Below are positions 7,651 through 62,424 of a stretch of DNA of 64,000 nucleotides, piece after piece (the stretch's first letter is position 1; every line of letters starts with the position of its first letter). This DNA is from Sanghuangporus weigelae (Eukaryota > Basidiomycota > Agaricomycetes > Hymenochaetales > Hymenochaetaceae). The stretch is from positions 124,001-188,000 of the forward strand of contig CP137318.1 in the NCBI GenBank assembly GCA_033182465.1. Direction: 5' to 3'. Position numbers and translations under genes: made by a program. The notes beneath the pieces are model-generated. The model searched no databases and was not told the DNA's origin. It saw only the letters and a program-made list of their open reading frames with translations.

Positions 7651-7773
7651 CGCAGCGCATAGCAAGTGAAATGTCTTGAATGCTAGCTTAGCTTAGGAAA
7701 TTCATGCACCTTACCAGACAGACGGCACCCAGAGGATAATTCCAGTCAATCTTCTTTCACTACGGGCAATTTA

Positions 7774-15685: not shown

Positions 15686-17516
15686 TGTAGCGCACTGGCT
15701 CCTCCTGTGCCAGTACACTCATACTATGGCTCCCTCTTACTGCAGATACCATATCCCAGCACTGCCGACACCTGAGAGTGTGAGGGCACACTCCTATTGC
15801 ACTCAGGACATCATTTGAGCACATATCCATTGATTCCAGCACACGTACTGTACTGCGGCGCCCTCCTATGACCCAAATCGATCCGCCGATGGCTCCCCGA
15901 CACTCAGACAGGTCCGCCGACAGCTCCTACCCAGCACCAGGCACTATAGGACACATCCCTCAGTGACTACGTGCCGCCGATCTTATGATTTACCATATGT
16001 ACAGCCGTGCGGCGACTCTGGATGCCTCCGAGTCGGCCCCCCTTGGCGCCGATCAATGCGGCGGACACTCAGACATCCTCAGGTACCCTCGCCGACGCCT
16101 CCTACAGCTTACCAAGCAGCCCCCCATTGTCTAGGGAGCTATATATTGTCATATGTGCTTACATGCCTCATTACGATGTATCTGCCACCAGTCCGGCAGT
16201 CCCCCACAGCACTGCCGCTCCGGCCACTCATATTAGTCACTAGGGATCGCCCACACTCTGTATTGAGTGCCGCCGATGCATCGGACACCTCAGGGACATC
16301 GGCTGATGCGCCCTTTGTCTCATATACGCGATATCAGCCTCCAATCATCGGTTCCGATGTTTCCCAACTTCCCCCTGACGCGGCAGCCCCCATTAGACCA
16401 TGTATGGAAGGTAGGCATGTGGTACATCGGCGTGCCAAGCCACCGACTCGCGCCGCCAAGCCCAACTCTGCCGGCGCCCGTGTTATTGCAGATACTCAAT
16501 ATTTCATGTGATTGGATGCCCCCCTCACGTTGCCGCTCTCAGATTTCACCTGGGCGCTCCGGCAGCGGCCCTTGGCGACCCAGATGACTCAGGAGATGTT
16601 GTCAGACAGTAGGATGTGTCGGCGACAGCAGTAGAGTATATATAGAGCTTATACTAGCTTGTAGACGAAAGGATTCGAAGCCTAGCGAGGATTCCAAGCC
16701 TAGCAAGGATTCCAAGAGCATGTACCAGACCGAGCGCCAGAGTTCGAGATATCCCTCACTCTGAGTCTCCCCTCATGTACTGAGCCTCCCCCTTGACTAT
16801 ATACTATCCTTGACATCTCCTCTTGTTTGACTCCACATTCTACTTGCCTCCGCCACCTCTGATACGCCTTTGCTGCTCTGACGTTCAGTGAGTGAGTAGG
16901 GCTTGGGATTTAACCCTGAGCCTCCTCCCCACACTTTATACCTGTCCGGCGCCCCTCTATTCGACGTCGGCAACCCTTCGGCGACCCAGGCTTCTCATCA
17001 GACTCCCCTTCGGCGTCCTTTCCAGCCTTTCACTCCAGTTTATCCCATATATTGATCTTATACGGTCTTTTCCTTTCATCTATCGCGTTTACGCTACTTC
17101 GGCGGATTCCTGCGGCCTCCCCCTCAGTCCGGCACCCCTCTATTCGACGTCGGCGGCCATCCGACAACCCAGGCATCCTATCAGACGACCCAGCGGCGCC
17201 TTCTCCAGCCACTCACTCCATTTTATCCTTTATATTCATCTTATACGCTTCTTCCTGTGGCCGAGTTTATATCACGTCGGCAGCCTCTTGTGATCCCCCC
17301 TTTTGAGCGGCGGCCCTGTTATCCTATTCCCTTTATCCAGCGGCATCCTTAGACCCATCCATTACGTCTCCGACAGTTCCTGGCACCTGCCGGGTAGTAG
17401 GTCTTTGAGAGTCTGATAGCGTCGGCATCCCATTTTTGGAGGTTCCTTCATACATTCAGCACCCTTAGTAGGACGGACATCTGTAGCACCTTCAGATACA
17501 ACACCGCCGACCGACA
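15686..17516 (+). mobile_element. Solo LTR, family LTR-1 (copy A)
   Basis: 1,831 bases from TGTAGCGCACTGG to CGACCGACA (TG...CA), with GCGT on each side (15682-15685, 17517-17520). A TATA motif (GTATATATAGAG) lies near 16625, so the first half is U3-like. No primer-binding site or pol frame, hence solo LTR. A 182-residue frame (15963-16511) recurs in copies B, C and E with a few substitutions. Copies A, B, C and E are close to identical, so the burst is recent. Confidence 0.75.
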
Positions 17517-18445: not shown

Positions 18446-19849
18446 GCGGTTCAAAGTGTTCGGCCATGGGCTGAGCGCAGCTTCCGGAAAAGCCGGCGCC
18501 ATCATATCTGCACTAGCTTTTACAGCCGTTTGCAAAAGTAATGAGAATCACATGATTTCACCACTTTTCTCGCCATGAGAGCCTCAAAACACAGATAAAA
18601 TCATATCTCACCCAAATCTCAACGGTTTCACATCATCTAAGTTGTTAAATTCATCTTTTCGAAAGGGCTTTCGCTTAGAAAAAACTGTAGAGAAAATAGA
18701 GCGAAAAATGACCCTAAAATGGCGAAAATATCGGTTTTTGCCTCTTCCTTGCATGTGCAATTTTTTCTGTGATCCCTGCTGGTCCAGCACCTCCCCAAAG
18801 CTATCCAGAATGATAATATGATTATAAAATGAATTTACAGACTGAGTTTGAGTTGAATTGTGTACCAGAATGTGCTGCTTTGAGGCATGCCTGAATCACT
18901 CAAAACTCATCATTTCCCCCTAGCCTCCCAGGCTCCAGGAAAAATTCTTACAGGCCAGATTCATGCATGTAAATTCATTTTGGATATAATAGACTAGGTT
19001 TGTGTACTAGCTAAGGCCTCAGCATCCACTGGTGAGCTGGGCTGAACAAGTGATTCTGGTTGTATGCATCATTTTAGACAGCATCTTCCCAGCTCACCAG
19101 TGGATGCTGAGGCCTTAGCTAGTACACAAACCTAGTCTATTATATCCAAAATGAATTTACATGCATGAATCTGGCCTGTAAGAATTTTTCCTGGAGCCTG
19201 GGAGGCTAGGGGGAAATGATGAGTTTTGAGTGATTCAGGCATGCCTCAAAGCAGCACATTCTGGTACACAATTCAACTCAAACTCAGTCTGTAAATTCAT
19301 TTTATAATCATATTATCATTCTGGATAGCTTTGGGGAGGTGCTGGACCAGCAGGGATCACAGAAAAAATTGCACATGCAAGGAAGAGGCAAAAACCGATA
19401 TTTTCGCCATTTTAGGGTCATTTTTCGCTCTATTTTCTCTACAGTTTTTTCTAAGCGAAAGCCCTTTCGAAAAGATGAATTTAGCAACTTAGATGATGTG
19501 AAACCGTTGAGATTTGGGTGAGATATGATTTTATCTGTGTTTTGAGGCTCTCATGGCGAGAAAAGTGGTGAAATCACGTGATTCTCATTACTTTTGCAAA
19601 CGGCTGTAACACTCTATCGAAGAAAATTGGCACCCCCACGGTATTATGGAGTAAGTTCGGCCTTTTACCCGAGTGAATAAGAAAATATTGATCGTATTTT
19701 CTCCAATGCGCTAATCTATAGTATTTTTTGCATGTTGTATTGCAGGGGCTGCCTGTACACTGCTTCTCCCTGAAGTAAAGGGTCGGGATGCAGATGAAAT
19801 TGATGCGGCCGAGATCCATGCTAGACGTGAAGTGAGGAGATACATTTAA
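18446..19849 (+). pseudogene. 3' remnant of an MFS (phosphate-permease-like) transporter gene
   Basis: The stretch 18446-18522 reads FKVFGHGLSAASGKAGAII, the conserved late-helix loop of fungal inorganic phosphate permeases (PHO84 type). The frame resumes after the foldback element at 19607-19650 (NTLSKKIGTPTVLW). A 95-base intron (GTAAGT...TTGCAG) follows, then a last exon 19746-19849 reading LLLPEVKGRDADEIDAAEI, the MFS sugar/phosphate transporter C-terminus, with TAA at 19847. Everything upstream of the final two helices is missing; L8 abuts the exon directly. Two mobile elements therefore ended this gene. The rest was not found in the window. Confidence 0.75.
18523..19606. mobile_element. 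1,084-base foldback element sharing ends with the 14.1-kb element
   Basis: Two 519-base arms (18523-19041, 19088-19606), at least 99% identical with two differences seen, around a 46-base loop. Ends are CAGCCGTTTGCAAAAG and its complement, flanked by TA on both sides (18521-18522, 19607-19608). TA target and CAG ends are of Tc1/mariner type. The first 25 bases equal those of the element at 23519-37616, and both carry a subterminal ATCACGTGAT palindrome. No coding content. It splits a transporter exon. Confidence 0.92.
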
Positions 19850-22775: not shown

Positions 22776-23351
22776 TTTTGTGAAATTTCTGCGAGAATAG
22801 CGAGGGAGGAAGAGCAATCTTTTGGATGAAGAATGCAGCAAATGGTTCATGTGCATATTGTGTACAGTTCCAATGAACGCGTCGCGTTTACCCACCGAGT
22901 CACGTGTAAACCTATTCATACGAGGTAAGCCCGGGCCGGGAGTCGTCGGCTTGGGTCGGTGGTGATAGCCGAGCGTCAGAAGCTGTGACTAAGCGCCCCA
23001 TGAGTGCTGAGTGAGTGAGACTTGAATTGATGCTTCCAGTGGTACAGTCATTAACCAGTCCTTTAAACAGTACCATTCCTTTAAACACCTTATGTTTTCT
23101 CACTCAATTCTTCATCCCTCACCACAAGAAAAATGTTGCAGATGCAAAGTGTATATCTGAATTGATATCCAAAATTTTAAGTAAATTGGGCAAGTTGTTG
23201 GGTCAGGAAAAATTAGACACTGGTCAAATTTATATGAAACCAGTAAACCTCACTCTGATCAAATTGGTCCTGTGCAGCATTTTTCTGTCAACCAATGTGG
23301 ATTCTAAGTTTATTAGCTAATATCACTCTATTATAAGTGTCTTATCTCTTA
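22776..23351. other. YSA1 upstream region and intergenic
   Basis: 22776-22919 could be a 5' extension of YSA1. Beyond it I see no gene. Near 23045-23090 a phrase of about 28 bases (GTACAGTCATTAACCAGTCC and flank) recurs inverted near 37925-37955, on the other side of the 14.1-kb element. Confidence 0.4.
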
Positions 23352-23481
23352 CACCTAGGGCAAAACCCTATTTTTGAACCTGAAAATTTTGATCCAGAAC
23401 TGGAAAGCTCGCCTCTGATTGGCTGGATTCCAGTTCTAGATCAAAATTTTCAGATTTGGAAATAGGGTTTTACCCCAGGTG
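23352..23481. mobile_element. 130-base foldback MITE, copy 2
   Basis: Same length and design as 8158-8287 (CACCTAGGGCAAAACCC at the left end), flanked by TTA on both sides (23349-23351, 23482-23484). About 93% identical to copy 1. It lies 37 bases outside the left end of the 14.1-kb element. Confidence 0.88.
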
Positions 23482-23518
23482 TTATATTTTCATGAAGGAA
23501 TATGCTTTCAGTAAATTA

Positions 23519-24870
23519 CAGCCGTTTGCAAAAGTAATGAGAAAAGCCTAAATCACGTGATTTGTTGACACATGTCGTGCCCTTGAACAACAAAAATGAA
23601 TTGAGTGCTCTATTTCTCGGTCAATACTGCATGTAAAAATATGATATGGCTATGTAAAAAAAGTGCTCGAAAATGCGCTTCCAACGGTGTAAGAATGTAT
23701 GAGAAATATAGTGTATACATGACAGAACAAAACAGACAACCTTGTCAACCCATCCCTCACAACCATCCCTCAGGCCATTGAAAAATCACCACTCATGAAA
23801 TACTCCATGTAAAAATATAATTCAGGTGGCATAATTCATGCAAGTGCAGAAGGTATCTGTGTACAAGTTCTTGTGGCAGGTATATTGATAGGCCCTTCAA
23901 TGGTAGAGTAAGGCAACAGCCATTCATGCCCACTTGCAGAACCCCTCTCCTCAGCCTCCTCGCAGGGCACTAGCACTCATCGTTTCGATTACCAACAGGT
24001 CAGTACTTGCCCTTCACTGCCTATCCCATCCAGTTGAAGCTCTGAAGAGAAAATGCAGCAGCCTTTGGAGCCAGGTCCGTCAACATCTTCATATTCTTCT
24101 TTGCATCTCGAGCCAAAGCGGTCAAAGCAGGCTAAAGAGCCTCAACGACAGATCAGTTAGCTACAATTTGTTGTTATCGCTCAGTACACAGCTCGCACGT
24201 ACAGATCATATTAAGTACAAGAAGCAATTCACGACTGAAGGCAAACTCTCGATCAAACGAGAGCAGGTGGAACTCGAATCATCGCTACTAAAAGAATACG
24301 GTCTGAAACTGCATATGACGGCCAAAATACACGGGAATACAGAGGTAGAATGACATATAGAAGAACAGAATACTTATTCAGATAGGGAGGGAACAAGAAG
24401 AGCATGACACAGCAATTCCTGCTGTACACGCGTTACAAGGCAAGGCAAATGGAGCCACTGTGTGGTGACCTACCGCAGCGTGCTCTTGGTATACTCAAAC
24501 AGCCGCAAAAGGGATCAACGTGCCCGCGTAAGAAGTAAGAAGACCGAGTCGAAATAAATAAACACGAAATGAGATCCTTTCGAGTAACGACCGCCAAACT
24601 AGACAAAGGAGAGGTGAAGAGGGCATAATTCCGTCCGTGGAGGGCAAGCGATTGTCCGGTCCATAGTACTTTCGGCCTCCCACAGTGGGAGTGAGGCAAG
24701 GCTGGATGGTCCCTCGCCCAGCTCACGTCGCCTTCCCCTTCCCCTTCCCCTTCCCCTTCGCCTTCGCCTTCGAGTCCGTCGCCTTCGCCTTCGAGTCCGT
24801 CGTCTTCGGCTCCTGATCCGTCTGAGCAGGGTTAGCTGACTCCATCCATTGTAACAGAATAAGGTAGTCC
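23519..24870 (+). repeat. Left terminal inverted repeat of the 14.1-kb element
   Basis: Matches 36290-37616 in reverse with only a handful of substitutions, plus a difference in the number of 6-base CCTTCC/CCTTCG units near 24727-24790. Contains the last codons of gene A and a 139-residue ORF (23934-24353) identical at protein level in the other arm. The outer end carries ATCACGTGAT near 23551. Confidence 0.93.
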
Positions 24871-26103
24871 GGATTTGTCGCATCTATTCCGGAACGTAGC
24901 TGCGCTTCGATGAAAATATCAATTTTCTTCTCCATCGACACGTCGTCCTTGGCGAAGTAATCACTCTCCATAAGAACACGATGTGCCTCTTCAAGTTCCT
25001 TGCCATGTGCAATCTCTTTTCCATCTTGCCGTGTCTCGTCAAATGCAGCAAACAGATGCATATAACCTTTATCGGCAATATCTTTTTGAACCCTCTCAAC
25101 CAACTGTTCGACATCTCGTATGGACTCCTCGTAATCTTTGTCGTATGTGTGCCTGGAGTGTGCTAGATAGTTCAGCGCGTTTCTCAATACCGATGGGCCA
25201 GTTACTGCAAGACGGAGTATATTATCGGAAAGGAGGATATGAAGACACTTTCGGAGCATGTCGAATTGTCTCTTGGCTCTGGCAAGTTGACCTTCAGCCC
25301 CTCGCATGTGCAAAACGTTCTCCCTCTGCTGTTGGGCAGTCCCTTCTTTGGTATGCTGCCAGGCAGGCGTCACCAAGGTACTTTGAAGTGCCTGGGGATG
25401 TGAGGTCCTCTCAGGAGGGTCCTGAGCAATTTGGGCGAGTTGGCCCTTGTCCGAATAGGTCGAGTGGACCTTCTCGAGCCCTTCAGCGGCATAACTACAG
25501 ATTGAGGTTGACACGTCGGCTTCGAAACGGGGTCGCGAGCCTCTGTATGCGTTACTATCGCTGGTCGGCTTTCGCTTTAGTTGTGCCTTCTTTCCCAGTC
25601 CCGGCGGGGAAAAACGGGGCAAAGCCCCCAGTGCTTTGCCCCACTCAGGTTTCTGTCGTAACTCTTGTGCTGTTCCAAACGCAAGTTCGTCCCCAGTGCC
25701 ATCATTATTGGAAACTTCATTGCCAGGCCCCTTGGGTGGGGATTGTTCACCGATGAACTTTAACGCTCCCACAATGTCTCCTGCTTCCATGAGTTCGAGC
25801 GTCCTTCGGAGAAAACTGTTTCGATCCTTAAAGTATTGCACCTGCTGGCTCCACATCAATATGTCACGCTTCGTCTCCGTGAATTTCCATATAAAGATTG
25901 GCGCGAAGAACCTTAGCTGTCTCGCCAGAGTTGCACTCCCTTCTTCAATCTGCTCGTACTCCAGCACAGCACGATTTTACTCGTCGCAAATGAATACACA
26001 ACGACCGGCATCGAAGAGAGCTTTGTAAGGTAGATCCTTCATTAAAATCGAGAAAACGCTCTTGTCCTGGATTGCTCGAAATCTCTGGTAACGACGCTCT
26101 TTG

Positions 26104-26275
26104 TCAACGAACTCGTTGCCACGATCGTCAACGTGCTCATTGCCACCACCCTCAGCGTACTCATTGCCACCACCCTCAGCGTACTCATTGCCACAATCGC
26201 CAATGTACCCACTGCCACCATCCTCAGCGTACTCATTGCCACCATCCTCAACGTACTCATTGCCACCATCCTTAT
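26104..26275. repeat. 24-base minisatellite inside gene A
   Basis: About seven imperfect 24-base units (core CACTCATTGCCACCA...) encoding on the minus strand the repeat G-G-N-E-Y-[VA]-E-[DG]. Units keep frame, so the array varies protein length. Not seen in the paralogue A'. Confidence 0.85.
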
Positions 26276-26807
26276 TGCTGTCGAAGTCCCGTTGGAACTG
26301 GTAACAGGACTCCCACGCCCGGACAACCTGATCGGTAAACTTCCACCATATCACCTCACGCTTTTGTGGGTCGTAACGGTTGACAAGATCATCACTGATG
26401 AAATAATCACTCATAGCAAGGATGAATCCTTGTGCGACGGCAGCACGAATATCATCAAGGTGCCGACGGACAACGATAGCCTCGTGGCTTCCCTTGTACT
26501 AGAAACAAGACAACATTAGACAAAATGCGCTTGAATGCTATGCGGCATGCTCACCTTGAGTGTCTTAGATTCCAACAGTCTCGTTACTTGTACGAGTTGC
26601 TCCAGCACCTCAGCTTGTTCCCCGATATCGCTCTTAACCGTTGTGATAACCTTTTTGAGTACTTCCTCGTGTTCTTCAATCTCCTTCTCTTTCGTTTCAA
26701 GTTTGCTGGACAACAATTGGACATGATCATGGATTTTGGCGATCACATCCACCGCCTTGTCGATAACAGCAGCAGAACCAGCTTCACCTTTCAACGAGGA
26801 CAAGCGT

Positions 26808-28590
26808 TGTAGCGCACTGGCTCCTCCTGTGCCAGTACACTCATACTATGGCTCCCTCTTACTGCAGATACCATATCCCAGCACTGCCGACACCTGAGAG
26901 TGTGAGGGCATACTCCTACTGCACTCGAGACACCATTTGAGCACGTTTCCACTGATTCCAGTACACGTACTGTACTGCGGCGCCCTCCTATGGCCCATAT
27001 CGATCCGCCGATGGCTCTCCGACACTCAGAAAGGTCCGCCGACAGCTCCTACCCAGCACCAGGCACTATAGGACAGACCCTCCAATGATTACATGCCGCC
27101 GATCTTATGATTTACTATACGTACAGCCTTGCGGCGACTCTGGACACCTCCGAGTCGGCCCCCCATGGCGCCGATCGATGCGGCGGACACTCAGACATCC
27201 TCAGGTACCCTTGCCGACGCCTCTTACAGCTTACCAAGCAGTCCCCCATTGTCTAGGGAGCTATATATTGTCATATGTGCTTACATGCCTCATTACGATG
27301 TATCTGCCACCAGTCCGGCAGTCCCCCACAGCACTGCCGCTCCGGCCACTCATATTAGTCACTAGGGATCGCCCACACTCTGTATTGAGTGCCGCCGATG
27401 CATCGGACACCTCAGGGACATCGGCTGATGTGCCCTTTGTCTCATATACGCGATATCAGCCTCCGATCATCGGTTCCGATGTTTCCCGACTTCCCCCCAA
27501 CGCGGCGGCCCCCATTAGACCATGTATGGAAGGTAGGCATGTGGTACATCGGCGTGCCAAGCCACCGACTCGCGCCGCCAAGCCCAACTCCGCCGGCGCC
27601 CGTGTTATTGCAGATACTCAATATTTCATGTGATTGGATGCCCCCCTCACGTTGCCGCTCTCAGATTTCACCTGGGTGCTCCGGCAGCGGCCCTTGGCGA
27701 CCCAGATGACTCAGGAGATGTTGTCAGACAGTAGGATGTGTCGGCGACAGCAGTAGAGTATATATAGAGCTTATACTAGCTTGTAGACAAAAGGATTCCA
27801 AGCCTAGCAGGGATTCCAAGCCTAGCAAGGATTCCAAGAGCATGTACCAGACCGAGCGCCAGAGTTCGAGATATCCCTCACTCTGAGTCTCCCCTCATGT
27901 ACTGAGCCTCCCCCTTGACTATATACTATCCTTGACATCTCCTCTTGTTTGACTCTACATTCTACTTGCCTTCGCCGCCTCCGGTACGCCTCTGCCGCTC
28001 TGACGTTCAGTGATCCGGCGCCCCTCTATTCGACGTCGGCGACCATCCGACGACCCAGGCATCTCATCAGACTCCCCTTCTGCGTCCTTTCCAGCCTTTC
28101 ACTCCAGTTTATCCCATATATTGATCTTATACGGTCTTTTCCTTTCATCTATCGCGTTTACGCTACTGCGGCGGATTCCTGCGGCCTCCCCCTCAGTCCG
28201 GCACCCCTCTATTCGACGTCGGCGGCCATCCGACAACCCAGGCATCCTATCAGACGACCCAGCGGCGCCTTCTCCACCCACTCACTCCATTTTATCCTTT
28301 ATATTCATCTTATACACTTCATACCTTCCTGTGGCCGAGTTTATACCACGTCGGCAGCCTCTTGTGATCCCCCCTTTTGAGCGGCGGCCCTGTTATCCTA
28401 TTCCCTTTATCCAGCGGCATCCTTAGACCCATCCATTACGTCTCCGACGGTTCCTGGCACCTGCCGGGTAGTAGGTCTTTGAGAGTCTGATAGCATCGGC
28501 ATCCCATTTTTGGAGGTTCCTTCATACATTCAGCACCCTTAGTAGGACGGACATCTGTAGCACCTTCAGATACGACACCGCCGACCGACA
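26808..28590 (+). mobile_element. Solo LTR, family LTR-1 (copy B)
   Basis: 1,783 bases, TG...CA, with GCGT at 26804-26807 and 28591-28594. Inserted in the second exon of gene A, whose frame is continuous across the site once one GCGT is counted. Very similar to copies A, C and E, with a short internal deletion. Confidence 0.78.
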
Positions 28591-28850
28591 GCGTGATACC
28601 AGGTCATCTCTCTTCTTCAAGATGTCCTTGAGCGCCACTATAACTCTGATTAGTAATGCCAAACGGGTAGCATGCAGCATCCCAAAGGTCACGTACGATC
28701 TAAAGCTTTATCCTGTTGTCCTGTAGTGTCTGTAGTGTCTGTGTCCATGGGTGGAGAGGTTGAGAGAGATCGTAGGAGATCGATGGACCAGGTTAGGTCA
28801 GGATGGTGGTAAGATGAAAAGTAACGGCTGACTCGAACCTCGTCTGACAT

Positions 28851-29007
28851 GGTGATAAAAGTGACGGGGTTCTCATCCCAGTGATGCGGAGGGTTCGTAA
28901 GTATGTAAGAGAAGAAGAGAAGAGACGAACAGAAAGGACATGTGTCAGACAGTAACGTCACAGTTTCTCTTGGTTTCTCTTTTCCTTTGCCCTTGCCCTC
29001 ACCCACC
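28851..29007. promoter_or_regulatory. Divergent promoter between gene A and the AT-hook gene
   Basis: Only 157 bases separate the two opposite ATG codons (28850 minus, 29008 plus), both in ACC/CACC-ATG context. A shared bidirectional promoter is inferred from spacing; no TATA box is evident. Confidence 0.5.
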
Positions 29008-31081
29008 ATGTCTACCGAGCTGTCTTCGAATCTATCTGCGGCAGCAATTGTAAGAAGCAGACGCCGGCCAAAGCCGTCTCAGAAGGTTCTCGATGCAGCT
29101 GCCCAAGACGTCCCTATGGTCAAGCGTGGTCGTGGGCGCCCTCGCAAAGTCGCACCAGAACAGCAGGGCTCAAATGTTGATTCCTGCGTTGACAAAGCCA
29201 AAGTATGCTCCTTCTTTTCTTTCACCTTGCGCTGGTTTCGACATATTTGTTGCAGCATGCTGTTCAAGCCGTGAGAATTCACTGTGAAGACAGGACTGGA
29301 ACTGACAGGGATGGTCAGGTAATGATGGCCTTATTTCCCACTTTTATATCTGCTATTGACCACTTCTGAAGCAACAAGAACGTCGTAGAATGGGGTATTT
29401 TGACCCAGAGCTGAAAGATGCTGTCGTCACTATGGATTCTGAAAGAGAAACAGACGATAAGGTATATTCCCGATCTCATAAATTTGCTTATGTCTTAATT
29501 CTTCTGAAGTCCATTGTACCGCCTCGCAAACGTAATCATTTTCCACAACCACCTCTACCATTGGACCCGCATAATCCAACTCCGGAGGTATCCAGGCTCT
29601 GATGTACGTAATTTATTTGTTCATCATTACTGATCAATACTCATCCGAAGAAAACTTTCTTACCGTCCCCCGGCGGAGGGCCTGCTGATGCCAGTACTTT
29701 TGATGAGGAGTTTTTGGACGATGTACTTGCACAGATCCTTGTAGACGGAATAGCGAACTCTACAATCCCTTTGTCCGATTCCGATCTTGAGGAAATTGAA
29801 GACGACGGTAATAAATACCATGCTTTTGTTGCTGAATGAAATCCATACTAATTGTGATGAAGATGATAAATTATCACTAGTCTCATCAAACTCGAGTAGA
29901 GGCAAGAACACACGTCGCACCCCAAAACGACCGGAGATTGAAGAGATAAAAGTCAAGGTCCACGACGGACTGGCAGAACGAATCGTTACCATATCATCTT
30001 TGGACAAGCACGCCGACGTCTTAGAGAAGGCTGCCCAAGCGATGAAACGACCAAATCATCTTGTTGAGATCGGGTATGAAGCCCCCTGGAGCTCAAAGAT
30101 AGGGACAAAGAAGAGCCTTATATATCTTTCCAACCCGGATGAACTTACGGAGTTCTGGTGTGCATATAGAAGGTATGTAAAGGATCAACGGAGCAAATGT
30201 CGCAATTGCGACCAGGAGATTACATGCAAAATAGTTTTTCGCAACATGTTGGACACTCTTCAAGTAATTACTTTCCTAGAAAATGACGACATTTGCTCAG
30301 TAAATTTGCTATAGGGTGCCACGAAGACAACTGTCTGTGCAGCCGGTGCGCCGAGGGGTAGGCCACTGAAACAGACTGACCCTACATACTCTGCTAGGGA
30401 CTCCGCCGATGAAAAGATCACTCAGGCTACGAAGAGTATCCAGGCTGCCATGTTTTGTCCAGTGCACAACCGCATGTGTTACGAGAAATACAATGGTACT
30501 TGCGGTGTTTATACCCCCGATCTCATTTTGGAACATGCGCAAAAACTTGTAAGTTTCGTGTTTGACTCTCTTCGCTTACTGATCTGATAACTGGGCATCA
30601 TGAGGCACGGCGGGAGTTGCATGTAGTTGCAAGTAAAGTCCCAGAGTCGATGTCAGCAAAATTACTTGACTACAAGAGGCCAGGAAGAATGAATCAGGGG
30701 GCGCCTCCTACTAATGGTGGAGTCCACAAGATACAGGTAGACTCGCATGCAGCACCCGTCAGAGTAGCACAGGAAGTTTTAACTTCTACTATGCACAAAG
30801 GACCACTGAACTACCCGGCTATCGGAGATTGGCTCAAGGCATGCGAAGATGATTTGGAGTGCGGCAGGGATAACCATGAATACCGGAAGCTTGCACCCGT
30901 GTTCTCGAATAATGGTTGCACAAGGATCGATGATATTGCAAGGATGAATACAGACAGGATCGAAGCTCTGGCAAAGGCGGAAGGGGTAGACGTGACGATA
31001 GGACTGGTGAATCGCGTTCATGATTATGCGGTGGAGGATGTTGCTTGTGTCAAGAGGGATGGAAAGTTGTCTACCTATTGA
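29008..31081 (+). CDS. AT-hook cargo protein with SAM-like C-terminus
   Basis: Eight exons with good GT-AG sites (first exon 29008-29202, last ending at TGA 31081). The N-terminus has an AT-hook (KRGRGRPRK, residues about 36-44) for minor-groove DNA binding and more basic patches (RRTPKRP). The middle holds a Cys/His cluster (CRNC; CPVHNRMCYEKYNGTCG), possibly metal-binding. The last 100 residues (YPAIGDWLKAC...GLVNRVHDYA) look like a sterile-alpha-motif-type helical domain. I believe similar proteins occur in many copies in agaricomycete genomes, but have not checked. It is intact, although the genes on both sides are broken by LTR-1. DNA binding is inferred; the role in the element is unknown. 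Confidence 0.83.
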
Positions 31082-31292
31082 AATGGCGCAGTTGCATTGC
31101 TTTCTCCTTTAGTTGTTTGATGTTTAATGCGCATGACGTACTCCCTTTCTGTTCGCTGTGCACAGTTTCTTTCCTCCTGTCTTTCGCTCACTGTATTTAA
31201 TCCATTTCGGGCTTCAACAGCTCTTTCTACGCATGAAATATATAAAACTGCTTCAACTGCATTTGTTCCTTGGGATCCACGTCAGGACCAAA

Positions 31293-34276
31293 TCAGAGAT
31301 AGCCTGATTGATGATAGAAACTTCGACAATCCGCTGCAGAGGTGCCAAAAGTTTGAAGATATAGGTATTCATACACAAGAACCTCATCCCCCTCCGGCGG
31401 CGGACTGCGACGTAAATTATGTTTAAGCAGCGAGAAAGCTAGCTCGATCGGGTTGAAGTCGGGAGAATACGCTGGCAAATATTCGAGCCTCATTCCTCTA
31501 TGAAAGTGGTGAACAAATTTTCAGTAACATATTTGAAAAAAGTTATCACCTTCCTTCGACAAGCTCGAGAAGTTTGGGAGCTTTGTGGATGGCACAATTG
31601 TCCATAACAACGACAGACATCGGTGCCGGAAACGGCTTCATTTTGGCCAAAAGGTCCTCAATGAAAACCATAAAAAGCTCCGTATTGAATGATCCTTCGA
31701 CAATCATGCATTCCACAATTCCGCTCATAGATATAGCAGGGAGGATGGAATACCTGGAAGCATGAAAACGACATGATGTGCAGATAGCTCTGAAAGTATA
31801 CCGTTTTCCCCTCGTGAATACCTGCTTTCAGCATGCGTGAACTCCCTCTAATGCCCATGCTCTACCATGCAAATATGTCCTTCGATCACACACTGTCGGT
31901 CGGCGGTGTTGTATCTGAAGGTGCTACAGATGTCCGTCCTACTAAGGGTGCTGAATGTATGAAGGAACCTCCAAAAATGGGATGCCGACGCTATCAGACT
32001 CTCAAAGACCTACTACCCGGCAGGTGCCAGGAACTGTCGGAGACGTAATGGATGGGTCTAAGGATGCCGCTGGATAAAGGGAATAGGATAACAGGGCCGC
32101 CGCTCAAAAGGGGGGATCACAAGAGGCTGCCGACGTGATATAAACTCGGCCACAGGAAGAAGCGTATAAGATGAATATAAAGGATAAAATGGAGTGAGTG
32201 GCTGGAGAAGGCGCCGCTGGGTCGTCTGATAGGATGCCTGGGTCGTCGGATGGCCGCCGACGTCGAATAGAGGGGTGCCGGACTGAGGGGGAGGCCGTAG
32301 GAATCTGCCGAAGTAGCGTAAACGCGATAGATGAAAGGAAAAGACCGTATAAGATCAATAGATGGGATAAACTGGAGTGAAAGGCTGGAAAGGACGCCGA
32401 AGGGGAGTCTGATAAGAAGCCTGGGTCGCCGAAGGGTCGCCGATGTCAAATAGAGGGGCGCCGGACAGGTATAAAGTGTGGGGAGGAGGCTCAGGGTTAA
32501 ATCCCAAGCCCTACTCACTCACTGAACGTCAGAGCGGCAGAGGCGTACCGGAGGCGGCGAAGGCAAGTAGAATGTGGAGTCAAACAAGAGGAGATGTCAA
32601 GGATAGTATATAGTCAAGGGGGAGGCTCAGTACATGAGGGGAGACTCAGAGTGAGGGATATCTCGAACTCTGGCGCTTGGTCTGGTACATACTCTTGGAA
32701 TCCTTGCTAGGCCTGGAATCCTGTCGTCTACAAGCTAGTATAAGCTCTATATATACTCTACTGCTGTCGCCGACACATCCTACTGTCTGACAACATCTCC
32801 TGAGTCATCTGGGTCGCCAAGGGCCGCTGCCGGAGTGCCCAGGTGAAATCTGAGAGCGGCAACGTGAGGGGGGCATCCAATCACATGAAATATTGAGTAT
32901 CTGCAATAACATGGGCGCCGGCGGAGTTGGGCTTGGCGGCGCGAGTCGGTGGCTTGGCACGCCGATGTACCACATGCCTACCTTCCATACATGGTCTAAT
33001 GGGGGCCGCCGCATTGGGGGGAAGTCGGGAAACATCGGAACCGATGATCGGAGGCTGATATCGCGTATATGAGACAAAGGGTGCATCAGCCGATGTCCCT
33101 GAGGTGTCCGATGCATCGGCGGCACTCAATACAGAGTGTGGGCGATCCCTAGTGACTAATATGAGTGGCTGGAGCGGCAGTGCTGTGGGGGACTGCCGGA
33201 CTGGTGGCAGATACATTGTAATGAGGCATGTAAGCACATATGACAATATATAGCTCCCTAGACAATGGGGGACTGCTTGGTAAGCTGTAGGAGGCGTCGG
33301 CGAGGGTGCCTGAGGATGTCTGAGTGTCCGCCGCATTGATCGGCGCCAAGGGGGGCCGACTCGGAGGCATCCAGAGTCGCCGCACGGCTGTACGTATGGT
33401 AAATCATAAGATCGGCGGCACGTAGTCACTGAGGGATGTGTCCTATAGTGCCTGGTGCTGGGTAGGAGCTGTCGGCGGACCTGTCTGAGTGTCAGGGAGC
33501 CATCGGCAGATCGATTTGGGTCATAGGAGGGCGCCGCAGTACAGTACGTGTGCTGGAATCAATGGATACGTGCTCAAATGATGTCCCGAGTGCAATAGGA
33601 GTGTGCCCTCACACTCTCAGGTGTCGGCAGTGCTGGGATATGGTATCTGCAGTAAGAGGGAGCCATAGTATGAGTGTACTGGCACAGGAGGAGCCAGTGC
33701 GCTACAACGCACTTTCATCAACGAAAACCAACTGCTCTGGAGAATAATTTGCTCCGATGCGAAGCCGATACTCTGCTCGACGGGACTCATTGCGTTCTTG
33801 CGCATGCTTTGTGATCTATGTTAAATTGTTGATTTTTTATCAGCCCTTTCGAATAAGCTACAATTACCTCCTTCATTCGAAAGCCTGCCCGGTTAAGAGT
33901 TCTCCAAATGGTAGCATCAGACACTCTCACACCGCATCTTTCTTCGAGCGATTGTCTGAGTTCATCAAGATAGATATCATTGTGACGCGTCACTGTTTTC
34001 AAAAGAAACTTGTTCCTTGTTAGTTACATCTCCGAGATCACGATTCTTCAGTCGTACCTGGGTATCAGCGAAGTCTAATGCCCTTGGACACCCTGATTTC
34101 GAACGGGGTGCAAGACACTCTTCCCCAGTTTGCTTCCAAGCATTCAAGACCCGATACACTGAAGCCCGAGGAACCACGGTGAGATAAACAATACCTTTTA
34201 CATCTAGTCCACAGTTCGTGGACATGTGCACAATAACGCGACGCAGGTCATCTGAGATAGGAACCCCATGCGTCAT
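31293..34276 (-). pseudogene. Tc1/mariner-family DDE transposase, split by an LTR-1 copy
   Basis: Starts at ATG 34276 (MTHGVPISDDLRRVIV). The N-terminal part has two helix-turn-helix regions (VPRASVYRVLNAWKQTG; VSDATIWRTLNRAGF), with introns at about 33968-34016 and 33830-33892. The catalytic domain has the first Asp in QLVFVDES, the second in VVVMDNCAIHK and the acidic residue in LPAYSPDFNPIELAF, typical of the DDE_3 transposases common in mushrooms. A third intron lies between the last two motifs. LTR-1 copy C (31894-33706) sits just after VDES. Outside that insertion I saw no other break, so the enzyme was intact until recently. It would cut at the CAGCCG ends; this is inference from family and TA target. 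Confidence 0.88.
31894..33706 (-). mobile_element. Solo LTR, family LTR-1 (copy C)
   Basis: 1,813 bases in minus orientation, flanked by ACAC (31890-31893) and ACGC (33707-33710), a 4-base duplication with one later difference. It sits inside the catalytic region of the transposase. Close to copies A, B and E. Confidence 0.78.
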
Positions 34277-34467
34277 GCTGGCAGTGGCAGTGGGCAAAAT
34301 AAACATAAACAAAGACAAGGAAAGAACTCGCGACAGTGTCGCAGCTTAGTAAGTATAAGGCATGCCCATATGCATCGCCCTATATCTCTCTTCCCCCGCT
34401 CCACCTCCTAACACTCACACTCACACACCTCCCTTTGCCACACAGCAGTTTGGACTGTTCAGTCAGA
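34277..34467. promoter_or_regulatory. Divergent promoter between transposase and gene A'
   Basis: 191 bases between opposite start codons (34276 minus, 34468 plus). A pyrimidine-rich stretch (CTCTTCCCCCGCTCCACC, CACACTCAC) near 34390-34430 is typical of fungal transcription starts. Mirrors the head-to-head arrangement at 28851-29007. Confidence 0.45.
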
Positions 34468-36412
34468 ATGTCCTACACTTACACTATGTCTCAGAGCCGC
34501 CCCACCACCGTGACACGCGGGCACGGCATCCGCCCCGCTACCGGGATACGCGGGCGTGACATCCGCCCGCCGACATTTGTTTCCTGCATCTCAACCCACC
34601 CAACCCATGGTGCATCGAAGGGGGAAGGTGCATTCCATGTCTTGTTTTGCCCTGCCCCCCTAAAATCGGGCTCTATAGACCCCATTAAGGGTATGGCTGT
34701 TCAGCATACGAGGATTAAAAGGAAACTGGAAGAGGCTGAGGGTTATCCTCCTGATCAAATAATGGTTCTCATAGATGTGCTATGCGATGTCGTTCATCGG
34801 CTTTCTCAGCATGTAACTCGTCTTGATAAGCGTTGTGATGGCGTAGCGAGTGCTGTGGACAATCAACGTGCGAAGTTGAAAGACCATTCCGCGACAGTGA
34901 AAAAGGATACCTCCGAGTTTGCGATGGCGCTCTCCGAGACCGTGGAGCATGTGAGGATGCTCGAGGCTTCTTCTTTAGGGGTAAATGACTCGTTCACAAT
35001 TAGACACACCTTTCCTACCTTACCTAATAGTCTCTCTTTCTTTTCAGAATGATGCAGCCACGAAGTTGTTAGATGTTCGACGTGGGTATACGATGGCGCG
35101 ATCTGACGTGGCGCATGGTTTCATGCTCGTCCTTCCGAAGTTCCTCAATGTGACAGGTTTCCTGAGCGAATTGGAATGGGCGATGCCAGTCAATCTATGG
35201 CACATGTTTTTATTGAAGCTGACGGAACATTACTGCCTCCACTTCAACGTTCAATCGAGGCCAAACGGGACGTACCTGTTTCGTCGTCGTCGCTCTGTTT
35301 TCCACTATCTTCTGGAAGAGGAGCGTTATTCACCGAATGGTCCGTATTTTGCTACTCTTCCGAACACCGCAATTGTCAGAGATTTTCGATCGGAAGCCGA
35401 TCACCAATGTAACGAAATTGGACGTTTCGGTACGGAAACTATCGAGGAATTCTTTGGTCGTGTCTTGAAGTTCTTCGCCCCGCTCATAATATGGGAACAT
35501 AGCGTGGTTAAGAAGGAAACAGAACAAACGGGCGCGGAAATTGAATCTCTGAATGCTGCGCTTGCTGAGCAACACAACCTTATTAGAGTACTTTCTCGTG
35601 GTGGTACAGTGGAAGAAGCGGTATATGCTAGTCAGCAATGCTCTCAGGCGGGCTATACCAGCAGCGCATCTGGAGGGACTCCTGCGCCACTGAAGCGCCA
35701 AGAGAGAGAAGGTATGGACCCTTCACTTAAGGCAGGTAGCATTTCATAGCAATTCTGAATCTGAAACACTCTATTTGGACAATCAGATATCGTTGTTGGC
35801 ATTTCGAACATCGAATCTTCCGGGATCAAGGTTGACAGCAGTCCTCAAATCGAATGTCCCCCGATCAATTCGGCGTTGATAAACCACCTAGAGGGAAACG
35901 CAAGAGTCTTTGAGAAGGAAATCAAGAAGGCTCTCGAGAAGCAGCGGAGCTGCACTCATTGGCTTAATGTTCTTCAGCGGTGCCTGCAAGTGCTCGGTGA
36001 CGAGAAGTTACTGAATCTAGCAATATCTGGATCCTCACGTGTATACGATCTTATAAAAGCGGGCGCGCTTGAGGTCAAGCTACCCTTCAAGCAGCTGGAA
36101 GCCGCGTGGACCACGATCAAGAAGGCTCGTACAGGAGACGTCGACTCGCAGGAAGTTTTCGATTCCAGTAAAGCTTTGCAGGAGACCGAGAAAGTCGAAA
36201 CTCTTGAAACAAATGAAGATGAAGTTGATGGAGCCTCGTCCAACATGGAGAAGAAAATCGATAATTTCATCGAAGCGCAGACACGTTACAGAATGAATAC
36301 AACAAATCCGGACTACCTTATTCTGTTACAATGGATGGAGTCAGTTAACCCTGCTCAGATGGATCAGGAGCCGAAGACGACGGACTCGAAGGGGAAGGGG
36401 AAGGCGACGTGA
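34468..36412 (+). CDS. Coiled-coil cargo gene A' (paralogue of gene A)
   Basis: Three exons (34468-34980, 35048-35735, 35787-36412), 1,827 bases, 608 residues, intact. The first 80 residues are low-complexity with repeated T-R-G-H/R-G-I-R-P-type units. Then comes a helical segment (about 85-170) with coiled-coil character, a central domain (FFGRVLKFFAPLIIWE) that matches gene A's LARQLRFFAPIFIWKF, and a C-terminus (TNPDYLILLQWMES...TTDSKGKGKAT) nearly the same as in gene A. The last codons lie in the inverted repeat. No catalytic motif seen. The start at 34468 is the first ATG of the frame. Being one of a pair at both ends suggests a role in the element's life cycle, but that is speculation. 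Confidence 0.8.
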
Positions 36413-37616
36413 GCTGGGCGAGGGACCATCCAGCCTTGCCTCACTCCCACTGTGGGAGGCCGAAAGTACTACGGACCGGACAATCGCTTGCCCTCCACGG
36501 ACGGAATTATGCCCTCTTCACCTCTCCTTTGTCTAGTTTGGCGGTCGTTACTCGAAAGGATCTCATTTCGTGTTTATTTATTTCGACTCGGTCTTCTTAC
36601 TTCTTACGCGGGCACGTTGATCCCTTTTGCGGCTGTTTGAGTATACCAAGAGCACGCTGCAGTAGGTCACCACACAGTGGCTCCATTTGCCTTGCCTTGT
36701 AACGCGTGTACAGCAGGAATTGCTGTGTCATGCTCTTCTTGTTCCCTCCCTATCTGAATAAGTATTCTGTTCTTCTATATGTCATTCTACCTCTGTATTC
36801 CCGTGTATTTTGGCCGTCATATGCAGTTTCAGACCGTATTCTTTTAGTAGCGATGATTCGAGTTCCACCTGCTCTCGTTTGATCGAGAGTTTGCCTTCAG
36901 TCGTGAATTGCTTCTTGTACTTAATATGATCTGTACGTGCGAGCTGTGTACTGAGCGATAACAACAAATTGTAGCTAACTGATCTGTCGTTGAGGCTCTT
37001 TAGCCTGCTTTGACCGCTTTGGCTCGAGATGCAAAGAAGAATATGAAGATGTTGACGGACCTGGCTCCAAAGGCTGCTGCATTTTCTCTTCAGAGCTTCA
37101 ACTGGATGGGATAGGCAGTGAAGGGCAAGTACTGACCTGTTGGTAATCGAAACGATGAGTGCTAGTGCCCTGCGAGGAGGCTGAGGAGAGGGGTTCTGCA
37201 AGTGGGCATGAATGGCTGTTGCCTTACTCTACCATTGAAGGGCCTATCAATATACCTGCCACAAGAACTTGTACACAGATACCTTCTGCACTTGCATGAA
37301 TTATGCCACCTGAATTATATTTTTACATGGAGTATTTCATGAGTGGTGATTTTTCAATGGCCTGAGGGATGGTTGTGAGGGATGGGTTGACAAGGTTGTC
37401 TGTTTTGTTCTGTCATGTATACACTATATTTCTCATACATTCTTACACTGTTGGAAGCGCATTTTCGAGCACTTTTTTTACATAGCCATATCATATTTTT
37501 ACATGCAGTATTGACCGAGAAATAGAGCACTCAATTCATTTTTGTTGTTCAAGGGCACGACATGTGTCAACAAATCACGTGATTTAGGCTTTTCTCATTA
37601 CTTTTGCAAACGGCTG
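36290..37616 (-). repeat. Right terminal inverted repeat of the 14.1-kb element
   Basis: Inverse of 23519-24870. The ORF at 37201-36782 encodes the same 139 residues as the left arm. Substitutions noticed: one near 37450, one near 36661 and two in the 36409-36702 reading frame. Confidence 0.93.
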
Positions 37617-37618
37617 TA

Positions 37619-44241: not shown

Positions 44242-44477
44242 TCAGACCCTCTTAAGCAGCAGCGAAGGTGGCTGTGTTCGACCACAGGGAGGTGTTGGCG
44301 ATGTCAAAGATCGGAGAGGTAAGAAAGGGTGCAACTTGTGGCTAGGCCTCCTAGACAGCTCGATGCCGCAGCGAACGATTTGACCCAGAAGCACTGCCAC
44401 CAATCGGAATCGACGTTCGGTCATGGGGGAGAGCTCAATTGTAAAGGCTGGAACATGGTCGATGTATGGAGGGGCGC
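44242..44477 (-). mobile_element. Short pol-side LTR retroelement fragment
   Basis: A minus-strand open stretch (PPYIDHVPAFTIELSPM) looks like part of a retroelement polyprotein; family assignment uncertain. Bounded by LTR-1 copy D. Confidence 0.35.
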
Positions 44478-46259
44478 TGTAGTGGGTGGTGTGTGTCTCT
44501 GAAGGCGCTACCAATGTCCGTCCTACTAAGGGTGCTGAATGTATGAAGAAACCTCCGAAAACGAGATGCCGACACTATCAGACTCTAAATCCCCACTACC
44601 CAGCAGGTGCCATGGACTGTCAGAGATGTGATGGATGGGTCTAGGGATGCCGAAATATGAAAGGGATAAGCTAATGGGGCCGCCGCTCAAAAGGGGGGGT
44701 TACAGGAGGCTGCTGACGTACTGGAAACTCGGACACAGGGTCGGCAGGAGCGTAGGAGATGAATATAAGGGATAAAATGGAGCAAGTGGGTGGAGAAGGC
44801 GCCGATGGGTCGCCTGGTACTATGCCTGTGTCTCTGGCTAGCCGCCGATGTCAAATAGGGCAAGCAGGAATGAGGGTGAGGCTGCACAAATCCGCCAAAG
44901 TAGTGTAAACGCGATAGATGAAAGGTAAGGGTAATATAAGATGGATATATGAGCTAAGCTGGAGTGAAAACTGGAAAGGGTGCCACAGAGGAGTCGGATA
45001 GGAAGCCTGGGTTGCTGAAGGGCCGCTGATGTCAAATAGAGGGGCACCGACGAGGTACAAGAGGGGTAGAGGAAGCTCAGGGTTAAATCCCGAGCTTCTG
45101 TAGACTCGCTGAATATCAGAGCGGCCAAGGCGTATCAGAGGTGGCCAAGGCAAGTAGAATGATGAATCAAGCAAGAGGAGATGTCAAAGATGGTATATAG
45201 TCAAGGGGGAGGCTCAGTACATGAGGGGAGACTCAGAGTGAGGGATATCTTGAACTCTGGCGCTCAGACTGGTACATGCTCTCTAAGATGATCTTAGCTC
45301 TATATATACTCTACTGCTGTCGCCGACATGTCCTACTGTCTGACAATATCTCCTGAGTCATCTGGGTTGCCAAGGGCCACTGCCGGAGCGCCCAGGTGAA
45401 ATCTGAGAGCAGCAACGTGAGGGGGGTGTCCAATGGCATGGAATATCGAGTATCTGCAATAATACAGGCACCAGCGGAGTTGGGCTTGGCGGCGCAAGTT
45501 GGCAGCTTGGCACGCCGATGTACCACATGCCTACCTTCCATACATGGTCTAATGGGGGCCGCCGCATTGGGGGGAAGTTGGGAAACGTCAGAGCCGATGA
45601 TCGGAGGCTAATATTGCGTATATGAGACAAGAGGCGCATCAGTTAATGTCCCTGAGGTGTCCGGTGTATCGGTGGCACTCAATACAGAGTGTGGGCGATC
45701 CCTAGTGACTAATATGAGTGGCCGGAGCGGCAGTGCTGCGGGGGACTGCTGGATCGGCGCCAGATACATCATAATGAGGCATGTAAGCATATATGACAAT
45801 ATATAGCTCCCTAGGCAATGGGGGACTGCTTGGTAAGCTGTAGGAGGCATCGGCGAAGGTACCTGAGGATGTCTGAGTGTGCGCCGCATTGATCGGCGCC
45901 ATGGGGGGCCGACTCAGAGGCATCTAGAGTCACCACAAGGCCGTATGTATGGTAAATCGTACGATTGGCAGCCCGTAGTCACTCAGGGATGTGTCCTATA
46001 GCGCCTGGTGCTGGGTAGGAGTCGTCGGCAGACCTGTCTGAGTGTAGAAGAGACATCGGCGGATCGATCTGGGCCTTAGGAGGGCGCCGCAGTACAGCAC
46101 ATGTGCTGGAATTGGTGAAAACATGCTCAAATGGTGTCTCAAGTGCAGTAGGAGTATGCCCTCACACTCTGAGGTGTAGGCGGCACTGGGATATGGTATC
46201 TGCAGTGGGAGGGAGTTATAGTATGAGTGTACTGGCACAGGAGGGGCCAGTGCGCTACA
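44478..46259 (-). mobile_element. Solo LTR, family LTR-1 (old copy D)
   Basis: 1,782 bases in minus orientation. Clearly more diverged than copies A, B, C and E; flanks GCGC and TCTC do not match, so the ends have changed or recombined. With copy F it shows an older wave of the family. Confidence 0.75.
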
Positions 46260-47306
46260 TCTCCAGGTTGCAATGTAAACAAATCATAAAAAAAAAAGGC
46301 TGTATACAGTGGGGCGAAGATGAAATAAGGTGTGTATGGTGCTGTGGCTGGTCGCCGACAGGATAGGGTGATAGGGGAGTGAATTATAAGGGTATAAGAT
46401 GAAGGGGTTAGGTCGGCGGTGACTGGAGTTGTAAGATCTCGAGTATTGGTCATATCTGGGTGCCAGCGCAGCGATAGATGTTTGTTTGGGTGAGTGCCAG
46501 GAAGCGGCAGCAGTGGGGATGTCTGGGGAGGCTGGTCTGGGCCTATAGGGATGGGTCTGTGCATGGGCGTGTGCCGCCGCTTGCGGGGGGGGCTGTAGTG
46601 TGCTGGGGGGAGGGCCGGGAGAGCCAGGAAGGCAGATCGCCAAAGGTGTCTCTGATAAGCAGGCAAAAATTGGAGGGATCGCCGCAGGCTTGGGCAGCAT
46701 CTGGGAAGAGGTCTGCTGTCTAGAGGTGTATGTATCCGCCGCAGGTTTGGGGTATATGAATTTGGGGGTGGGGGGGGGGGGGCTTGTAGATGTTGAAACT
46801 GTCGCCGACGCATACATTTCTTCATTCGCCGCAGGTGTACAGGCTGCTGGGATAGTCTGGGAGCTGAGGCAGGGGAGCGGTGAGGTGTTGGGCATGGAAT
46901 AGTGATGTGAGGGTGTCCTGAGTCGAGTACCAGTGGTGGGGGGGATTGCCGAAATGTGTTACCTTAGTTAATTCTTTGCTAGGATGCCGGCGGAGGCGTT
47001 TTAGAGCATGTAGGCAGGCAGAACACTTCGCCAGTGACTGGATCTGTGATTTAGAGGTTCTGGTAGTGTTCGGTGAGGTCTGCCACAACAGCATGGGTAT
47101 GGGCAAAGAAGGGCCGACTAAGGAGAAGGTCAAACGGCGCATTTTCGAGTATATGGACTGGCGCTGTAGCGCACTGGCTCCTCCTGTGCCAGTACACTCA
47201 TACTATGGCTCCCTCTTACTGCAGATACCATATCCCAGCACTGCCAACACCTGAGAGTGTGAGGGCACACTCCTATTGCACTCAGGACATCATTTGAGCA
47301 CATATC

Positions 47307-48818: not shown

Positions 48819-50838
48819 ATATCCATTGATTCCAGCACACGTACTGTACTGCGGCGCCCTCCTATGACCCAAATCGATCCGCCGATGGCTCCCCGACACT
48901 CAGACAGGTCCGCCGACAGCTCCTACCCAGCACCAGGCACTATAGGACACATCCCTCAGTGACTACGTGCCGCCGATCTTATGATTTACCATACGTACAG
49001 CCGTGCGGCGACTCTGGATGCCTCCGAGTCGGCCCCCCTTGGCGCCGATCAATGCGGCGGACACTCAGACATCCTCAGGTACCCTCGCCGACGCCTCCTA
49101 CAGCTTACCAAGCAGTCCCCCATTGTCTAGGGAGCTATATATTGTCATATGTGCTTACATGCCTCATTACGATGTATCTGCCACCAGTCCGGGAGTCCCC
49201 CACAGCACTGCCGCTCCGGCCACTCATATTAGTCACTATGGATCGCCCACACTCTGTATTGAGTGCCGCCGATGCATCGGACACCTCAGGGACATCGGCT
49301 GATGCGCCCTTTGTCTCATATACGCGATATCAGCCTCCGATCATCGGTTCCGATGTTTCCCGACTTCCCCCCAACGCGGCGGCCCCCATTAGACCATGTA
49401 TGGAAGGTAGGCATGTGGTACATCGGCGTGCCAAGCCACCGACTCGCGCCGCCAAGCCCAACTCCGCTGGCGCCCGTATTATTGCAGATACTTGATATTC
49501 CATGCTATTGGATGCCCCCCTCACGTTGCCGCTCTCAGATTTCACCTGGGCGCTCCGGCAGCGGCCCTTGGTGACCCAGATGACTCAGGAGATGTTGTCA
49601 GACAGTATGACGTGTCGGCGACAGCAGTAGAGTATATATATATAGAGCTTATACTAGCTTGTAGATGAAAGGATTCCAAGCCTAGCAAGGATTCCAAGAG
49701 CATGTACCAGACCGAGCGCCAGAGTTCGAGATATCCCTCACTCTGAGTCTCCCCTCATGTACTGAGCCTCCCCCTTGACCATATACTATCCTTGACATCT
49801 CCTCTTGTTTGACTCCACATTCTACTTGCCTTCGCCGCCTCCGGTACACCTCTGCCGCTCTGACGTTCAGTGAGTGAGTAGGGCTTGGGATTTAACCCTG
49901 AGCCTCCTCCCCACACTTTATACCTGTCCGGCGCCCCTCTATTCGACGTCGGCAACCCTTCGGCGACCCAGGCTTCTCATCAGACTCCCCTTCGGCGTCC
50001 TTTCCAGCCTTTCACTCCAGTTTATCCTATCTATTGATCTTATACGGTCTTTTCCTTTCATCTATCGCGTTTACGCTACTTCGGCGGATTCCTGCGGCCT
50101 CCCCCTCAGTCCGGCACCCCTCTATTCGACGTCGGCGGCCATCCGACAACCCAGGCATCCTATCAGACGACCCAGCGGCGCCTTCTCCAGCCACTCACTC
50201 CATTTTATCCTTTATATTCATCTTATACGCTTCTTCCTGTGGCCGAGTTTATACCATGTCGGCAGCCTCTTGTGATCCCCCCTTTTGAGCGGCGGCCCTG
50301 TTATCCTATTCCCTTTATCCAGCGGCATCCCTAGACCCATCCATTACGTCTCCGACGGTTCCTGGCACCTGCCGGGTAGTAGGTCTTTGAGAGTCTGATA
50401 GCGTCGGCATCCCATTTTTGGAGGTCCCTTCATACATTCAGCACCCTTAGTAGGACGGACATCTGTAGCACCTTCAGATACGACACCGCCGACCGACAGC
50501 GCGTGCATTGAAAACCCAGGAATTGAGATTTGATGCTGGGAATTATGTGGGAGCTTTGGGCAAGGCATCGGCAAGGCTGTATGGATGTGTATAGGGTTGG
50601 AAATGCATGCCGGCAACTTGATCTGGCACCATATACGTCGGGGAATACCAATAAATGAGCTTCCAGAGTCGAGAACACCATTAACCTGTAACATATCATT
50701 GAGATGGACATTGATCTCATGCAGAGGGATGACTGCTGGTGCTAAGAGCTTCTCTGGGTGCTTGGGAAAGCCTGCCAGAGGTTTCCAGGGTGGCGGCATG
50801 TCTGCGGCGAAGGTGATGGCTGCCTGTTGACGAGTGGC

Positions 50839-59808: not shown

Positions 59809-59865
59809 GCGTGAGTGTTCAATCATCCTATTTTCTTTATTTATAAACTATAAACTAACTCGAAC

Positions 59866-60356: not shown

Positions 60357-60548
60357 AATGGCCTTGCACGACCTTTGATGATCGTTGTAATGGCTCATAC
60401 GAACGTTCGTTTTTTTTTTTGTTCTTGTTCGATCGTAAAGAAATCGTATGCTCTATGTGTTTCGTTTCGCCTGTACAAACAACGAATGGCTCGAGATCCT
60501 ATCGAGCAAATAAATGTTTATTTATTCAATTCTCAAAGGTGCGACTAC

Positions 60549-62392: not shown

Positions 62393-62424
62393 GATGGATG
62401 GATGGATGGATGGATGGATGGATG
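62393..62424. repeat. GATG microsatellite
   Basis: Eight tandem GATG units. Confidence 0.95.

Follow-up and report, generated by a model that had tools for sequence, protein, structure and literature searches.

The 64,000-nucleotide stretch of Sanghuangporus weigelae DNA analyzed here (contig CP137318.1, positions 124,001 to 188,000; hereafter the window) contains, at positions 23519-37616, a 14,098-bp unit that lies between two TA dinucleotides and holds a broken transposase gene, a further gene that we call A, and two mirror-image copies of another, B-left and B-right (Table 1). The unit is probably a single degraded multi-gene cut-and-paste transposon that inserted at TA and belongs to the IS630-Tc1-mariner superfamily (DD34E type). 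Its two inverted arms are 99.8% identical, with three mismatches over 1,229 nt, and the inner and outer neighbors of the two arms differ from each other. A first-pass annotation, made from the letters alone, had described TA flanks, identical CAGCCG... ends and 1.3-kb inverted repeats at over 99% identity; TA is indeed present on both sides, the 25-base end is exact at both extremities, and the repeats agree with that description at the length and identity measured here. Sequence likeness falls inward, from the near-identical arms through 160 bp at 91% to B proteins of 30-39% identity. No inner direct repeat of the end within the arm, as in a Sleeping-Beauty-like layout, rose above shuffled sequence.

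Table 1. Positions of the 14.1-kb unit, its parts and related repeats in the window (LTR, long terminal repeat; HTH, helix-turn-helix)
Feature	Position	Strand	Remarks
LTR-like repeat, partial copies	near 8743-9507, 44475-46259, 47161-47301, 48822-50501
LTR-like repeat, third full copy	15686-17516		1,831 bp; flanks GCGT/GCGT
Small palindromic element	18523..19606	.	Same 25-bp ends, TA flanks, ATCACATGAT / ATCACGTGAT
TA, left flank	23517..23518	.	Proposed target-site duplication; flank sequence ends ...AAATTA
Left inverted arm	23519..24747	+	1,229 nt; starts with 25-bp end CAGCCG...; ATCACGTGAT at 23552
Gene B-left	24723..28680	-	Broken by LTR-like insert 26808-28590 and in-frame TAA at ~25977
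Inner continuation of inverted repeat	24776..24935	+	160 bp, 91% complementary; partner 36245-36404; codes C-terminus of both B genes
Solo-LTR-like insert	26808..28590	+	1,783 bp; TG...CA; GCGT both sides; within B-left
Gene A	29008..31081	+	8 exons with hand-placed GT-AG introns; 564 aa, uninterrupted; AT-hook-like stretch under cut-off
Tc1/mariner transposase gene	31383..34274	-	Broken; Pfam and reading-frame pieces; 34274 is the probable start codon, 31383 the end of the last piece used rather than a mapped stop
Transposase E motif	31437-31466	-
Transposase second D motif	31591-31608	-
Solo-LTR-like insert	31894..33706	-	1,813 bp; TG...CA; flanks GCGT and GTGT; within transposase gene
Transposase first D motif	33711-33734	-
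Transposase HTH pieces	33868-34345	-
Gene B-right	34468..36412	+	3 exons, 600 aa, open throughout; last codons inside right arm; hand-placed GT-AG introns
Right inverted arm	36388..37616	-	3 mismatches vs left arm; ATCACGTGAT at 37574
TA, right flank	37617..37618	.	Proposed target-site duplication; flank sequence starts TAATGC...

A search of the whole window for the 25-base end, with up to three mismatches permitted, returned four matches, all exact, against an expectation of zero (100 shuffles). Two of these sites are the ends of the 14.1-kb unit, and the other two bound a 1,084-bp palindrome lying 3.9 kb upstream (18523-19606); none falls inside 23544-37591. The palindrome has arms of 522 nt with four mismatches and no open reading frame (ORF) of 150 amino acids or more, and its near-perfect arms agree with the tendency to keep arms alike proposed for the larger unit. 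Only the 25-bp end and the motif ATCACRTGAT are common to the two, the motif adjoining the end directly in the palindrome and being separated from it by 8 bases in the 14.1-kb unit; the remaining sequence is unrelated. ATCACGTGAT occurs four times in the window against 0.08 expected, the fourth occurrence, at 12591, standing without an adjoining CAGCCG... end. Both units have TA on both sides (2/2). Because two otherwise unrelated units bear the same ends and TA flanks, such ends must have inserted at least twice, and by their sequence the two units look like a transposon family with a non-autonomous relative. The first-pass annotation had named the lack of any other copy as counting against it; only the small palindrome, with the same ends, answers to that. 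Joining the flanks across each unit gives TTAA with a single TA at both sites, and searching the window with the joined flanks returned the flanks themselves and dispersed repeats but no uninterrupted copy. Strictly, the TA might still form part of the end sequence rather than a target-site duplication.

The D, D and E motifs of the transposase sit in separate open pieces. The gene is interrupted by an LTR-like insert (31894-33706) just past the first D motif and by an in-frame TGA within 31822-31839; since it is broken, this copy is no longer self-mobile. DDE_3 was recognized by Pfam above its cut-off of 28.6 bits on two pieces (39.9 and 36.1 bits), and the piece with the first D is too short for a Pfam match. 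HTH_33 scored 28.3 bits on a transposase piece (cut-off 25), while HTH_Tnp_Tc3_2, also at 28.3 bits (E = 2.1e-6), stayed below its own cut-off of 31.5. From the second D to the E the spacing is 34 residues across one putative 52-nt intron, which points to an enzyme of the DD34E type. The first-pass claim of one DDE transposase with D, D and E motifs therefore holds for the motifs, all of which are present, and for the recognized domain, but has to be qualified in that the gene is broken and the motifs come from different pieces. Compared with solved structures, a 93-aa transposase piece gave six matches, all unrelated (E 0.11-0.95), and the piece with the second D had no relative in viral_contigs.

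Neither gene A nor gene B contains a Pfam family above cut-off. An AT-hook-like stretch in gene A scored 11.9 bits, short of the 17.4 required, and no recombinase family was found in A or B with Pfam up to E 1. No relative of gene A or of B-right was found in viral_contigs, and exon 8 of gene A had no match among solved structures. Introns of gene A and B-right are 48-75 nt long. The gene structure would suit a fungus, probably a mushroom-forming basidiomycete. The G+C content at third codon positions (GC3) is 0.46 in gene A and 0.53 in B-right, compared with 0.48 in the flanking methyltransferase gene, a single host gene.

B-left and B-right are diverged mirror-image copies that both point outward and have their last codons within the arms. 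In exon 1 they are 30% identical across 70 aa (E = 4e-9) and in exon 3 they are 39% identical across 163 aa, and with the C-terminus omitted the similarity score was reached in 0 of 500 shuffles for each of two stretches. The rear part of exon 2 is also clearly alike (0/500 shuffles as high), and the first introns of the two copies agree in position and phase. The first exon piece of B-left, placed by eye, may lie at 28648-28680, upstream of the insert. In exon 2 of B-left, a 24-bp tandem repeat (26104-26295) encodes a run of GGNEYAED-like units that B-right lacks. The three other multi-exon genes reported in the first-pass annotation are thus all present, but two of them represent a single gene in diverged mirror copies, of which one is broken.

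Three copies of the LTR-like repeat are fully bounded in the window (1.78-1.83 kb, each TG...CA), and the inserts in the unit are probably solo LTRs. The full copies are flanked by GCGT or GTGT, an apparent target preference. With the lengths of the two inserts subtracted, the 14,098 bp are reduced to 10,494 bp, in accordance with the 10.5 kb first estimated.

A TA-flanked inverted-repeat unit with a Tc1/mariner-type transposase inside is likely to be what the first-pass annotation took it for, a Tc1/mariner-type element. Insertion at TA is what a Tc1/mariner enzyme gives, and the unit combines TA flanks with a DDE_3 domain of 34-residue spacing and an N-terminal HTH, all features of the superfamily. 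It could instead be argued that the long-armed, TA-flanked unit is some other element and that the transposase is a separate small Tc1/mariner insertion whose ends have decayed. Nested inserts are common in the window, two LTR-like ones occurring in this unit alone, and the transposase forms a block between A and B-right in which three motifs come from separate pieces. Such an insertion should have terminal repeats of its own, a possibility also raised in the first-pass annotation, but none was detected in the adjoining gaps (31082-31480 and 34271-34468), where the best inverted match scored 11 and was equalled in 34 of 200 shuffles. In addition, the gap between the transposase and the start of B-right is only 194 bp wide and that to the stop of A about 300 bp, and among the proteins of the unit that were tested Pfam recognized no second transposase family. 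Because the gaps lack an inverted match, no other transposase family was recognized, and TA insertion fits the enzyme present, one unit is the better reading and a nested insertion is unlikely. We likewise doubt, though without dismissing it, that A and B are captured host genes, true cargo carried by an otherwise identical transposon. They are multi-exon genes with ordinary short introns, and the GC3 of gene A is similar to that of the one flanking methyltransferase gene; against capture stand the lack of any Pfam family above cut-off in A and B and the mirrored B pair, whose reach into the arms would imply long residence in the element. Since the B genes are mirror-image paralogues running into the arms, accessory genes appear to suit the data better than captured ones, and the host-like cargo of the first-pass annotation is not supported.

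Two further explanations fare worse. That the unit is not mobile at all and ends at TA by chance, whether as a segment duplicated in inverted orientation or through misassembly, is very improbable: the failure of the joined flanks to find an uninterrupted copy in the window would be in keeping with it, but the arms are bounded by an end sequence that recurs at the borders of an unrelated unit, and the three differences between the arms, together with their differing neighbors, are unlike a simple assembly fold-back. A composite arrangement, in which a host segment lies between two copies of a small element and is moved with them in the manner of bacterial composite transposons, is prompted by the nearby small element with shared ends. 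The 25-bp end is, however, confined to the outer edges of the unit, the arms stop within the final B codons instead of at a second element end, and beyond the end and motif they are unrelated to the small element. With no inner copy of the end in the arms, the composite transposon was rejected as extremely improbable.

Several observations weigh against a single multi-gene DD34E transposon. The evidence for the 14-kb unit comes from one copy within one 64-kb window. Three protein queries and one 23-base end pattern had no match in viral_contigs, and a 20-base end pattern had one match in genome_contigs, in a Bacteroidales metagenome-assembled genome, with about 0.5 expected by chance. The DD34E spacing depends on the putative 52-nt intron. 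The front part of B exon 2 shows only weak likeness between the copies (20/500 shuffles as high). Over the 52 codons at the C-terminus the B pair differs at 14 bases, 13 of them in residue-changing codons; nothing there speaks for purifying selection, and the differences are too few for any selection claim. The predicted structures were too poor for use, with a mean pLDDT (predicted local distance difference test) of 37 for exon 8 of gene A and 48 for exon 3 of B-right.

If the unit is one transposon, the original element would have measured about 10.5 kb and carried four genes, namely the transposase, A and the two mirror-image B genes, and the two solo-LTR-like inserts would have arrived later. 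The transposase presumably acts on the CAGCCG... ends. We speculate that it binds the 25-bp ends, perhaps together with the nearby ATCACGTGAT palindrome, and cuts at TA, after which the whole unit would be reinserted. The A and B proteins could serve as nuclear accessory factors in DNA binding or in the pairing of distant ends. The long arms may have arisen by inverted duplication of one end together with the neighboring gene B, and gene conversion might then keep the outer 1.2 kb of the arms alike while the coding parts of B diverge.

Tc1 elements typically have a length of about 1.3 kb, repeats of about 30 bp and a single ORF, long repeats being described as an accepted variation (PMC7325037). 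The 14.1-kb unit departs from this form in its 10.5 kb without inserts, its 1,229-nt arms and its four genes. Closer parallels come from ciliates. As outlined in the same text (PMC7325037), the Tec elements of Euplotes are Tc1/mariner elements of the DD34E type with arms of about 700 bp and three ORFs, one of them a site-specific recombinase. Very long inverted arms, several genes and a DD34E transposase are common to Tec and the 14.1-kb unit, which differs in being fungal, in its four genes, 1.23-kb arms and length of about 10.5 kb without inserts, and in the lack of a recognized recombinase family. The TBE elements of Oxytricha, with three ORFs, also combine a Tc1/mariner transposase with extra genes, two in number (PMC7325037; PMC4724952, from the portions available). 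TBE differs in its arms of about 80 bp with telomeric repeats and its zinc-finger/kinase third gene, and those portions mention no mirrored gene pair.

Among fungal elements, the Trem elements of Paracoccidioides, as far as the accessible text describes them, measure 1.85-1.9 kb with repeats of 42-49 bp, TremE having a second ORF of 217 aa (PMC2836289). They share with the 14.1-kb unit the TA duplication and a transposase between inverted repeats but are far smaller, with shorter repeats. Starships of the Pezizomycotina, in the accounts available, are likewise fungal and carry further genes; they move by a tyrosine recombinase and are far larger, whereas long inverted arms and an enzyme of the DDE kind characterize the 14.1-kb unit. 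No match to a Starship-type tyrosine-recombinase captain was found among the proteins tested from the unit. Ant1 of Aspergillus niger is reportedly a Tc1/mariner element with a captured gene. Outside fungi, the enlarged En/Spm elements of Chondrus crispus, DNA transposons of 16-20 kb with 4-5 ORFs according to the available text of a giant-transposon review (PMC6431247), resemble the unit in size and ORF number but have a transposase of another superfamily.

Tc1 and mariner are not mentioned in the available text of that review (PMC6431247), nor is mariner in that of an article on Laccaria transposons (PMC3411680). TET/JBP genes carried by fungal DNA transposons are the subject of a 2025 paper that names several superfamilies, mariner being absent from its main text as available (PMC12730594). 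Full-text searching of the literature found no fungal element of this form. Because Repbase, subscription journals and preprints lay outside this search, it gives only weak evidence that the fungal four-gene form with mirrored genes is new; the first-pass suggestion of an undescribed class stands as far as no fungal case was found, but not in general, since multi-gene Tc1/mariner elements are already known from ciliates (PMC7325037).

A wider proposal, to which we give somewhat less than an even chance, is that a fungal Tc1/mariner lineage independently became a large multi-gene element, as Tec did in ciliates, with accessory proteins of its own that include a diverged mirror-image pair, and with long palindromic arms maintained by conversion. 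If so, the Tc1/mariner superfamily would be able to enlarge and to retain accessory genes in hosts other than ciliates, and the mirrored B genes, with near-identical arms next to them, would allow a clean test of the way in which long inverted arms originate and stay alike.

The window contains a second long-armed unit (58484-64000, left end approximate) that runs past its right edge, with arms of 894 nt and three mismatches (58918-59811 and 63107-64000). It starts where a gypsy-type pol match ends (58480), has CACGTG at 58519, about 32-38 bp from that end, and may be a cousin of the 14.1-kb unit. The gypsy-type retroelement pieces that it interrupts occupy 54004-58480 (+) and include an integrase zinc-binding domain (84.7 bits). 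Directly left of the 14.1-kb unit lies a short inverted-repeat element (23351-23482) with 55-nt arms at 87%, a copy of which, 92% identical, is found near 8157-8291 (within 8148-8291); we take the TTA on both sides to suggest a miniature inverted-repeat transposable element of PIF/Harbinger type. An apparent host gene for a lysine methyltransferase (Methyltransf_16, 73 bits) is located at 6442-7692 (-).

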